Shown here: piece by piece, positions 34,675 to 45,284 of the stretch
Layout: each line of letters opens with the position of its first letter
How positions within the stretch are numbered: the first letter of the stretch is position 1
Assembly (NCBI GenBank): GCA_030066875.1
Contig: JASJAS010000041.1
Coordinates: 1-45,284, forward strand
From: Acidimicrobiia bacterium
GTDB taxonomy: Bacteria > Actinomycetota > Acidimicrobiia > Spongiisociales > UBA5794
Direction of reading: 5' to 3'
DNA length: 45,284 bases
Translations under genes and position numbers: made by a program
Notes under the pieces: model-generated
Told to the model about the DNA's origin: nothing
What the model saw: only the letters and a program-made list of their open reading frames with translations
Database searches by the model: none

Positions 34675-36465
34675 TTAGCCCCAACTGAGCCCGAGCCAGG
34701 TGGAATCGCTCCACGACGTGCCGGACCACGAGGTACCAGACCAGGACGTGCCAGACCAGCTGGTCCCCGACCACGAAGTGCCGGACCACGAGGTCCCGCT
34801 CCACACATAGTCTGACCAGCTGGTACCTGACCAGGAGGTACCACTCCAGGATGTGCCCGACCAGGACGTACCACTCCAGGATGTGCCCGACCAGGACGTA
34901 CCGCTCCAAGACGTGCCGTTCCAGTCGCCACCGTCCCAAGACATGTAGTTCGCCGCGTACTTGGCCCACACCTCGGAGATAAAGCTCTTGCCGAAGATGT
35001 CTTGCTCGCCCTCCAGCACCACTCCGTCGACCGCAACGTGATGCGAGCCGCGGGCACCTTCTAGTGAGCCGGACCCATTGCCGTACCAGCCGCTGCTCTG
35101 CAACGAGAGGTCCTCGTAATCTTCTGCCTCTTCGAACTCGTCCTCTAGCTTGTCGAGGTCGATGAGCCCGGCTTGGGCGCACTGGGCGTTATCCGCCGCA
35201 ACCTCGCGACTCGTCTCCATCAGCGCCGCTTTGACCTCGTTGGGCGTCAGGTCCGGGAACTGGCTGAGCATGAGCGCTGCTGCTCCAGAGACCACTGCGG
35301 AGGCTTGCGACGTACCCGAGCCGAGGAAGAGCCTGTCTCCGATACGGGCTTCGGGATAGTTGACGTCGGCCGAGGAGCCCGGGTTGCGCAGGCTGATGAT
35401 CGAGCGACCCGGGGCAAGTACGTCGATATGCCGGCTGCTGGTGCCACAGTTGGTGAAGCCGGCGACGTAGTCGTTGCTGGGGCTAGCGGTGTAGTTCGAA
35501 TCCGAGGCGCCAACCGCGATGACGTGGGGTTGAAGTGCGGGGTTGCGGAGGGGAAGCGAATTGCCGTCGTTGCCCGAGGCGACTACTACCACGATCCCGG
35601 CACGCCATGCCTGTTCAACCGCGAACGCAAGGGGATCGAGCTGCGCCGACTGGGTGGAGTCTGTCCCGTAGGCGAGGTTCAGAACCCGGATGTTCATCCC
35701 GTTGTCGTTCTTGTGCTGGACGACCCAGTCGATGGCGGCAATCACCTGGGAAACGTCGACGGCGCCTTCATAGTTGGCGACCTTGACATTGATGATCCGG
35801 GCGCCAGGTGCCACTCCCCTGAAGCCAGCGCTGGTGCCGTCGTCGCCGGCGATGATTCCGGCGAGGTGGGTCCCGTGTCCGTATGTGTCCATGTAACGGA
35901 GGTCATCGGACTGCGATTCGAAGGAGAGGTCCGGTCCGTTGATGACCTTGCCCGTAGTGGTGAGGCCCTGCACCGGGACAACACCCGAGTCGATCAGCGC
36001 AACATCCACACCGTCGCCGTAGTAGCCGTCCTTCCAGAAGTCGTCTGCCTCAATGGTGTCTTCGACTATCGACTCGAGCGACCCGGCGTAGTTGTCGGCC
36101 AGGCTGGCGGAAATCCCTGTGGCGTCTTCCCAGCCGTCGTCATCATCGAGAATGTCCAGCGCCCCGTCTTCGACCACCGAGGAAACGGCAAGATGACGTT
36201 GGAGCTCGGCTACGCCGTCTGCCGGCACGACGGCCGAGAACCCGCCGATGATCGCCAGCGGCTCAGCGACGTCGCCGCCCACCGCGGCGACGGCCGCTTC
36301 GGCAGCTGCCACATCCACGGCCGTGACGATCACGTTGATGTCTTCGCCGTCGGCACGAGCCGGCGATGGCGCCGCCACCATGACGAGAGCGGTGGCGAGA
36401 GCGGTCAAAAGGATCAGAACAATGCGGGCGCGGCTGAGCGAGCCGCGGCCTAGGGAAAGAGTCAT
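34675..36465 (-). CDS. Secreted subtilisin-family serine protease (S8) with WSGTS repeat tail
   Basis: A 596-residue exported protease. Signal peptide residues 1-38 (ending APSPARAD). Residues 42-110 resemble an I9-type inhibitor prodomain. The S8 domain has Asp159 (DVALIDSGV), His197 (YGHGTHLAG), Asn299 (ASGNDG) and Ser386 (GSGTSQASA). A linker leads to 14 pentapeptides of the form WSGTS, then WSDST and the end. The ATG at 36465 is preferred over GTG 36474 because AGGAAG is better spaced. The tail could attach the protease to the cell surface, which is inference. Confidence 0.93.
   Translation of the reverse strand: MTLSLGRGSLSRARIVLILLTALATALVMVAAPSPARADGEDINVIVTAVDVAAAEAAVAAVGGDVAEPLAIIGGFSAVVPADGVAELQRHLAVSSVVEDGALDILDDDDGWEDATGISASLADNYAGSLESIVEDTIEADDFWKDGYYGDGVDVALIDSGVVPVQGLTTTGKVINGPDLSFESQSDDLRYMDTYGHGTHLAGIIAGDDGTSAGFRGVAPGARIINVKVANYEGAVDVSQVIAAIDWVVQHKNDNGMNIRVLNLAYGTDSTQSAQLDPLAFAVEQAWRAGIVVVVASGNDGNSLPLRNPALQPHVIAVGASDSNYTASPSNDYVAGFTNCGTSSRHIDVLAPGRSIISLRNPGSSADVNYPEARIGDRLFLGSGTSQASAVVSGAAALMLSQFPDLTPNEVKAALMETSREVAADNAQCAQAGLIDLDKLEDEFEEAEDYEDLSLQSSGWYGNGSGSLEGARGSHHVAVDGVVLEGEQDIFGKSFISEVWAKYAANYMSWDGGDWNGTSWSGTSWSGTSWSGTSWSGTSWSGTSWSGTSWSDYVWSGTSWSGTSWSGTSWSGTSWSGTSWSGTSWSDSTWLGLSWG
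34714..34923 (-). repeat. Tandem 15-bp repeats coding WSGTS units
   Basis: Fourteen in-frame 15-bp units (WNGTS, six WSGTS, WSDYV, six WSGTS). One 30-bp pair is exact (34841-34870 and 34871-34900). Elsewhere Ser alternates between AGY and TCN codons while the amino acid stays the same, so protein-level selection has kept the motif. Confidence 0.92.
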
Positions 36466-36555
36466 TGGCCCCACGCTTCCTATCGCTTCCTTGCGAAACT
36501 CGACTTCACAGCTGCATTTATCGACAGAACCGAGGGTAAATCTTGGGAGTCATAA

Positions 36556-41731: not shown

Positions 41732-42079
41732 TCACAGACCCTCCGAGAAGTCCTGGCGACGACCCACCCGGAGCCGAATCTGGGCGATCTCTCCTTGACC
41801 CACGTGGGTCTCGAGACTGCTGCGAATCTGTGCCTGTCGGAGCCGCAGCCGCGACGCGGTACTTCCGTCGGCAACCTCGACGGTGAGTACGCCTTGTGAC
41901 AGCCGCACCGGACGGGAGTTGTGGCTTGCTTCGGCGCCGACGACTTGGGGCCAGATGGTCTTGACCAGTTCGAATGTTGCCAGGTGACCTTCGGTGACTC
42001 GCTCCAGAACGGCTTCGAGTGTCTTATCCACGGCGAGGAGGCCGCGGTCGGGGTCCTCTCCGGTCCAGGGATTCTTCAT
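41732..42079 (-). CDS. DUF721 (DciA-like) protein
   Basis: A 115-residue protein with a DUF721/KH-like region: LEAVLERVTEGHLATFELVK, then IWPQVVGAEASHNSRPVRL and GVLTVEVADGSTASRLRL. DciA proteins are the ancestral loaders of the replicative helicase DnaB. Its place between recF and gyrB is standard in actinobacteria and fits that role. It begins 13 bases after the recF stop. Confidence 0.88.
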   Translation of the reverse strand: MKNPWTGEDPDRGLLAVDKTLEAVLERVTEGHLATFELVKTIWPQVVGAEASHNSRPVRLSQGVLTVEVADGSTASRLRLRQAQIRSSLETHVGQGEIAQIRLRVGRRQDFSEGL

Positions 42080-43218: not shown

Positions 43219-44298
43219 CTACAAGCGGACGGGCATCAATAGATACCGGAATGAATCATCATCGGCTGCCGTCAACAGACCGGGCTTCAGCGGATTGATA
43301 GTCTCGAGAACCAGATTCTCCGACTTCATCGCAGCAACCCCGTCCGTGAGATACCGGGTATTGAAGGCGATGACCATGTCCTCACCCTCATAGGCAGCTT
43401 CGATGTACTCCGTTTCACCGCCAACGTCCTGCCGAGTAACGCTGAGTTCAACACCCCCGGCACCAAGACTGAGGCGCACCGGAATGTGGTCCTCTGCTAC
43501 CAGTGAGGCCCGGCCTACTGCGTCCAGCAGCGCTTCTTGGTTGATCGTGAGCCTGTTGGGATAACCGTCGGGAAGTAGCCGCCGGTAATCAGGGAATGAG
43601 CTTTCGATGACCCGAGCCGTCATACGTCCGCGGTCGGAACCGAAGGTTCCTTCCCGCTCCCCTATGGCAACTGCCATCTTCTCCGCCCCAATGGTGCGAC
43701 CCAGCTCCTTCAGAGCCCGATACGGGATGAGTGTCGTGTTCACACCGGCAGTACCGGGCAAATCCCGCACTGCGAGACGGTATGAATCCGTGGCTACCAG
43801 ACGCAGATGATCGCTCTCAGTCTCGAACAGGACGCCGGTCAACGTGGGCCGTCCATCATCCGTCGACGCCGCTATTCCCACCTGGTGCAGTGCCGCAATC
43901 AGGGCCTCGCCGTCCATTTCGACTCCCCCAGCAACGCTTCCTCCGGCAACGTCCGGGAAGTCATTCACGTCGAATTCGCGCAGGTTGAACCGAGGACCAT
44001 TGCCCGTGATCTCGACTTCACCGTCCTCGGCGTTGAACGAGACCGCCCCCGGTGGCAGCTTTCGAACCGCTTCCGCCACCAGCTTCGCCGGTACCACCGT
44101 GCTGCCTTCTTCGAGAACCTCCACGGGAAGTGACGTCTCGATTGTGATCTCAGTATCGGTCCCGGTCACCTCTAGGTTTCCACCTGTGACTTGGCACAAC
44201 AGCCCCTGCAGGATGGGTAGTGCCGACCTTGTTCCTACCGCCCTACCGGCTCGGGTGAGCACATCTGCAAGGTCATCTCTTTCAGCTCTGATACGCAC
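43219..44298 (-). CDS. dnaN: DNA polymerase III beta sliding clamp
   Basis: A 359-residue three-domain clamp that holds the polymerase on DNA. It starts MRIRAERDDLADVLTRAGRAVG and contains RSALPILQGLL, then GEALIAALHQVGIAASTDDGRPTLTGVL, and ends with YLLMPVRL, the typical clamp C-terminus. Start codon is GTG. It follows the putative origin. Confidence 0.97.
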   Translation of the reverse strand: MRIRAERDDLADVLTRAGRAVGTRSALPILQGLLCQVTGGNLEVTGTDTEITIETSLPVEVLEEGSTVVPAKLVAEAVRKLPPGAVSFNAEDGEVEITGNGPRFNLREFDVNDFPDVAGGSVAGGVEMDGEALIAALHQVGIAASTDDGRPTLTGVLFETESDHLRLVATDSYRLAVRDLPGTAGVNTTLIPYRALKELGRTIGAEKMAVAIGEREGTFGSDRGRMTARVIESSFPDYRRLLPDGYPNRLTINQEALLDAVGRASLVAEDHIPVRLSLGAGGVELSVTRQDVGGETEYIEAAYEGEDMVIAFNTRYLTDGVAAMKSENLVLETINPLKPGLLTAADDDSFRYLLMPVRL

Positions 44299-44483
44299 AG
44301 TTGGATCCCTCTTCTTCGATTGTCATAGATTCAAAAGAGTAGTCGTAGTAGTAGGCACTGTGGATTGTGTACAGGTGACAAATGTGTCGGGATTCATTGG
44401 CTAATCCGCTCCACAAGCGGTGTGGATAAGCGCCGCTGTTTCCACAGTGAGTCGGTTTGACAAGAGCCGCCATGTGGAGAACA
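44299..44483. other. Putative origin of replication (oriC) between dnaA and dnaN
   Basis: This 185-bp gap holds a perfect DnaA box TGTGGATAA (44421-44429), TGTGGATTG (44359-44367), TGTGGAGAA (44473-44481) and GTTTCCACA (44438-44446). Directly before the 44359 box the plus strand reads TAGTCGTAGTAGTAG then GCAC, which fits a DnaA-trio, short GC spacer and DnaA box. An AT-richer stretch (44310-44340) precedes it. The gap also has to carry dnaN transcription signals. Confidence 0.7.
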
Positions 44484-45284
44484 TCAAGTTGTCCTCAGAT
44501 CATGGGACAAAGAAGTCACGTCCTTGTACACATCGGCATCGGACTGCATGAGACCGCGGATCTTGTCGACCGCATGCAAGACCGTCGTGTGGTCACGGTC
44601 GCCGAAGGCTCTGCCGATTTTGGGTAGAGATAAGTCCGTGTACTCGCGACAGAGATACATAGCAACCTGTCGGTAGCGGGCGAGTGGCTGACGACGGCTC
44701 GGCCCGACGAGATCATCGCGCGTGTGCCCGCTGAAAGATGCCACCCGGTTGATGATGTCGTCGCAAGTGAGGGGCTTGGTGTCGAGCGCCGGCACGAGAT
44801 CTCGTAGCACCTCCTGTGCCATCTCCAACGTGATGATCTCGTGGGTGAGCGCCGCATAGGCAGTGACGCGGGTCAAGGCGCCCTCGAGTTCGCGAATGTT
44901 GGTGAGCACACTCTCGGCAATGAACTCGAGAACATCTCGGGGAACAGGCGCTGGAGCAAACTCAGCGTTACTGCGCAGAATCGCCAACCGAGTTTCGACA
45001 TCAGGCGCCTGAATGTCAGTGAGCAGTCCCCACTCGAACCGGCTGCGTAGTCGATCCTCCAGCGTCGTGAGATGACGAGGATGTCGATCAGAAGTGATAA
45101 CGAGCTGTTTGTCTGCCTCATAGAGAGAGTTGAACGTGTGGAAGAACTCCTCGAGGATCTGCTCCTTGCCATCGAAGAACTGAACGTCATCGAGAAGAAG
45201 CAGGTCGATGGTGCGGTAGCGCGCCTTGAACTCATCCATCCGCTTGCGACGGATGCCGTTGATGAACTCGTTGAAGAACTGCTC
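44484..45284 (-). CDS. dnaA: Chromosomal replication initiator DnaA, N-terminus outside window
   Basis: The C-terminal 266 residues of DnaA. The frame stays open past the track start to the window edge (...EQFFNEFINGIRRKR-MDEF), so the real start lies beyond base 45284. Walker B LLLLDDVQFF, the sensor and arginine-finger region (LRSRFEWGLL), and domain IV with the DNA-binding signature GDRDHTTVLHAVDKI are present. It binds DnaA boxes in the adjacent gap and opens the origin. Confidence 0.97.
   Translation of the reverse strand, partial: EQFFNEFINGIRRKRMDEFKARYRTIDLLLLDDVQFFDGKEQILEEFFHTFNSLYEADKQLVITSDRHPRHLTTLEDRLRSRFEWGLLTDIQAPDVETRLAILRSNAEFAPAPVPRDVLEFIAESVLTNIRELEGALTRVTAYAALTHEIITLEMAQEVLRDLVPALDTKPLTCDDIINRVASFSGHTRDDLVGPSRRQPLARYRQVAMYLCREYTDLSLPKIGRAFGDRDHTTVLHAVDKIRGLMQSDADVYKDVTSLSHDLRTT

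Follow-up and report, generated by a model that had tools for sequence, protein, structure and literature searches.

The dnaA-dnaN intergenic region at 44299..44483 (185 bp between the limits of the two open reading frames) very probably belongs to the chromosome origin, oriC, as its unwinding part, and is of the basal unwinding system (BUS) type. We favour this reading because the region holds the best site in the window (the whole stretch of DNA analysed, 45,284 nt), because its core is conserved in 79 of 80 regions, and because the density of DnaA boxes, the skew minimum of a related chromosome (G030), the gene neighbourhood and an A+T-rich stretch point the same way. An oriC with DnaA-trios had been proposed here in the initial annotation, and the order of the elements, their strand, their position between dnaA and dnaN, their class-wide conservation and the G030 skew all agree with that proposal. 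The reading is weakened by a broken fourth trio and a weak distal tandem box in the window copy, and by uninformative skew in two further relatives (G007 and G118). No oriC for Acidimicrobiia was found described in the literature searched; the origin is now likely fixed for this class, and the Bacillus-type unwinding module appears to hold there. What emerges is an ordinary, well-supported origin, in which the BUS plan itself is already known and the register of box spacing is a modest variation at the level of the class.

The window forms the end of contig C119 in a draft genome of 171 contigs and 3.16 Mb, whose nearest relatives are uncultured Acidimicrobiia. Its last genes all lie on the minus strand and comprise dnaA (3' part), dnaN, recF, dciA, gyrB and gyrA. 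The dnaA fragment (44484..45284, minus strand; Pfam Bac_DnaA and Bac_DnaA_C) is cut by the contig end. The assembly is split within this gene, with its start at the end of contig C36 (C36:26346-26549), its 3' part ending C119 and its middle absent. On the other side of the intergenic region lies the sliding clamp gene dnaN (43219..44298, minus strand; Pfam DNA_pol3_beta domains). The gene for the ancestral replicative helicase operator DciA (dciA, 41732-42079, minus strand) is found between recF and gyrB, three genes downstream of dnaA and beside the origin. Between the trios and dnaN, the stretch 44299..44339 is 39% GC as against 62.5% in the window, and only 0.07% of the window's 41-bp stretches are equally A+T-rich. 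This stretch likely serves both as the continuation of unwinding and as the dnaN leader.

Reading the sequence directly, the order of trio, GC spacer and DnaA box that had been noted is present on the plus strand at 44340-44367. The DnaA-trios TAGTCGTAGTAGTAG occupy 44340..44354 on the plus strand, in conserved columns, and divide into TAG TCG TAG TAG TAG; read 3'->5', the run is GAT GAT GAT GCT GAT, so that the three units nearest the box are unbroken, the fourth is broken and the fifth is intact. Only three trios are unbroken because the fourth unit (TCG) lacks the middle A. The earlier description of a DnaA-trio next to a DnaA box stands for three trios, with the run broken at the fourth. 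Three trios is the published minimum for a BUS (PMC8287927), and all trios are intact in a relative of the same genus as the source genome (L011). A 4-bp spacer, GCAC (44355..44358, plus strand), of the same length in most class members, leads to the trio-proximal DnaA box TGTGGATTG (44359..44367, plus strand), which reads CAATCCACA in dnaA sense, carries two mismatches and is nearly invariant across the class. The tandem partner of the proximal box is the distal box TGTGTACAG (44366..44374, plus strand), and the two overlap by 2 bp. The distal box is degenerate in the window, where it appears as CTGTACACA with three mismatches, and is strong in most relatives.

Further boxes lie toward dnaA. 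A weak box in the opposite orientation, CGCTCCACA (TGTGGAGCG in dnaA sense; three mismatches), is located at 44407..44415 on the minus strand, followed by the perfect consensus box TGTGGATAA at 44421..44429 on the plus strand and by another opposite-orientation box, GTTTCCACA (TGTGGAAAC in dnaA sense; two mismatches), at 44438..44446 on the minus strand; all three positions are conserved. The sequence and the alignment also support a box with one mismatch, TGTGGAGAA (44473..44481, plus strand), which adjoins the dnaA stop codon. The perfect box reported initially is therefore present, and the weaker boxes are more numerous than the two that had been listed with it.

The published rules for a BUS call for a DnaA box that has at most two mismatches and lies no more than 16 bp from the trios, and for at least three consecutive 3'-NAN-5' trios; a tandem pair of co-oriented boxes is the commonest arrangement, though not an obligatory one, with up to four mismatches allowed in the second box and the boxes at most 3 bp apart (PMC8287927). 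In the window, the first box (CAATCCACA) stands 4 bp from the trios with its two mismatches, three GAT units precede a GCT, and the second box has three mismatches and a 2-bp overlap with the first. The clustered DnaA boxes adjoin dnaA and dnaN, as is required of an oriC. When a score built on these rules (PMC8287927) was applied across the whole 45-kb window, the trio-spacer-box module obtained the highest value (7, as compared with 3 for the next site); of 500 dinucleotide-shuffled versions of the region, 1 reached this score. The 3.16-Mb genome contains a single match to the short pattern TAGTAG-N2-8-TGTGGA, and the reversed control has 6 matches. The uniqueness of this pattern was set aside as weak evidence, since chance matches are common across other genomes, and the argument therefore rests on position and conservation.

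Conservation was assessed in a lineage set consisting of the window and 79 related loci. Across these 80 intergenic regions, which measure 158-264 bp with a median of 187, the core CCACA-N3-5-CTAYYAM is kept in 79 at no more than one substitution, and a stricter, exact form of the core pattern is found in 74. The alignment contains six conserved box positions, at about 3, 38, 55, 69, 110 and 117 in dnaA sense, and the boxes, the 4-bp spacer and the trios stand out in it as conserved islands amid variable DNA. If no more than one mismatch is allowed, boxes are likewise concentrated between the two genes (67 loci): their density there is 6.9 per kb, as compared with 1.6 per kb near the start of dnaA and 0.2 per kb inside the gene.

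The position of the origin was also approached through GC skew. For the complete 2.21-Mb chromosome of G030, which belongs to the same order as the source genome, the cumulative skew computed base by base over a 60-kb stretch has its minimum at 1357679, a local value whose exact base is not to be over-read and which falls inside the dnaA-dnaN region (1357632-1357820). The best skew step genome-wide, from 20 sampled stretches, lies at 1360000. Skew placing the origin elsewhere had been named as the finding that would speak against the proposal, and in this relative the minimum coincides with the proposed site. G007 and G118 were discarded as skew references, as their skew is too weak and irregular to place an origin, and G007 may be a joined assembly. 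Within the 45-kb window itself, the skew on the dnaN side is for the most part negative, which is what a replication fork travelling that way from the origin should produce.

Two explanations would deprive the region of an origin function. The match between trios and box could have arisen by chance in a leader rich in A+T, and the short TAGTAG-N2-8-TGTGGA pattern is indeed not rare genome-wide; yet the position and spacing of the trio-box match are kept in 79 of the 80 regions, and boxes were found at only 1 of 1584 positions when control offsets of 10-25 bp were searched, so that we give this explanation next to no weight. It is also conceivable that the boxes only regulate dnaN transcription and that the origin lies elsewhere, given that DnaA acts as a transcription factor as well (PMC4447404) and that the region is the dnaN leader. 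Such a role would have to account for trios that are kept in register with the box throughout the class and for the G030 skew minimum, both of which argue against it as the sole function and make it very improbable.

A further alternative concerns how much of the origin the region represents. Most of 70 relatives have an inverted box pair, TTCTCCACA-N2-3-TGTGGATAG, a short distance upstream of the start of dnaA, and contig C36 of the source genome carries it as TTCTCCACAGCTGTGGATAG (L242:1436-1455). Since this pair is conserved and is also present on C36, a bipartite origin of the B. subtilis kind is possible, in which the dnaA-dnaN region would be joined by looping to a box cluster upstream of dnaA; 44299-44483 would then be only half of oriC, and a single origin of 185 bp may be incomplete. 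In B. subtilis, the dnaA promoter region contains box clusters, as does the interval between dnaA and dnaN (PMC4447404), and the upstream pair resembles that bipartite oriC, with boxes on both sides of dnaA and a loop between incA/B and incC, although its function here is putative. Against this, the pair comprises few boxes, is without trios and may only autoregulate dnaA transcription. It could act in the autoregulation of dnaA or form a second part of the origin, and we regard the bipartite arrangement as a serious possibility that nonetheless falls short of an even chance.

The tandem boxes beside the trios are set in a register that appears to be characteristic of the class. In relatives, the two co-oriented boxes have the consensus TTnTCCACAATCCACA, with an offset of 7 bp and hence an overlap of 2 bp; the bases shared with the distal box account for CA in place of TT at the start of the proximal box. 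Of the 63 near relatives in which the offset could be read, 52 have 7 bp (9 have 8 bp, 1 has 9 bp and 1 has 17 bp), and a second sample of the class, covering about 25 families and sharing at least 4 genomes with the first, has 7 bp in 32 of 32 readable regions. Of the other Actinomycetota sampled, 17 have an offset of 9 bp, 10 of 8 bp and 1 of 6 bp, and none has 7 bp. A one-base overlap (8-bp offset) does occur outside the class, and overlap per se is thus not unique to it; no paper on overlapping DnaA boxes at an unwinding site was found in the literature searched. The 7-bp register probably reflects one ancestral change that was retained, as opposed to many independent ones. Whether it amounts to a distinct BUS geometry is, in our estimation, evenly balanced: with a 7-bp offset, the DNA-binding domains of the two DnaA molecules would be rotated by ~70 degrees as compared with the 9-bp offset seen elsewhere in the phylum, the segment from the AAA+ end to domain IV of DnaA unchanged in length. 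A shift in the length of the domain III-IV segment was considered as the cause of the register and rejected, with 102 residues between the landmarks both in and outside the class. Within the class, one position in domain IV is almost always proline (103 of 106); outside it, the residue varies. If the geometry is indeed distinct, the seating of the first two DnaA protomers would vary between lineages. The 7-bp and 8-9 bp registers provide a natural series on the freedom of these protomers at the hand-over to the trios.

The module closely resembles the B. subtilis incC BUS (DnaA-box#6/#7 and trios), with co-oriented boxes, a short spacer and 3'-GAT-5' trios on the matching strand (PMC6669920, PMC8287927, PMC10721633); both are located between dnaA and dnaN, and boxes further upstream could act by looping. 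Unlike incC, the window copy has three unbroken trios followed by a broken one, together with a degenerate distal tandem box. The 2-bp overlap of the Acidimicrobiia boxes also departs from the spacing of at most 3 bp between boxes in the BUS search rules, a comparison that concerns those rules and not the B. subtilis spacing. Sequence, position, conservation and the skew of one relative are observed for this origin; each binding, unwinding and loading step would, by analogy, follow the B. subtilis BUS (PMC6669920, PMC10721633). DnaA-ATP would bind the distal boxes (the best being at 44421-44429 and 44473-44481) as well as the tandem pair at 44359-44374, on which two protomers would be seated. 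From there, the DnaA oligomer may grow onto the TAG-trio strand (44340-44354) and strip off its partner strand. The A+T-rich stretch would then open toward dnaN and the helicase would be loaded there, with DciA as a likely assistant.

The origins of Streptomyces and Mycobacterium also lie between dnaA and dnaN, and large-genome Actinomycetota (L202 and L203) share a CCACA-N4-CTACTAC core. Streptomyces oriC extends over about 950 bp (PMC4285127) and that of M. tuberculosis has 13 boxes, with opening at -500 to -518 from dnaN (PMC2607554), whereas the region in the window has only 185 bp and six box positions. That it is far smaller than these origins, as had been stated initially, is correct, but its size is no anomaly: lengths in 69 sampled Actinomycetota regions have quartiles of 221, 292 and 522 bp, and 12 of the 69 are 200 bp or shorter. 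Compactness was therefore dropped as a special trait.

Elsewhere in the window, a subtilase (S8 peptidase; 34675-36474, minus strand) ends in a C-terminal array of WSGTSWSGTSW repeats, with the coding DNA forming a 15/30-bp repeat array.
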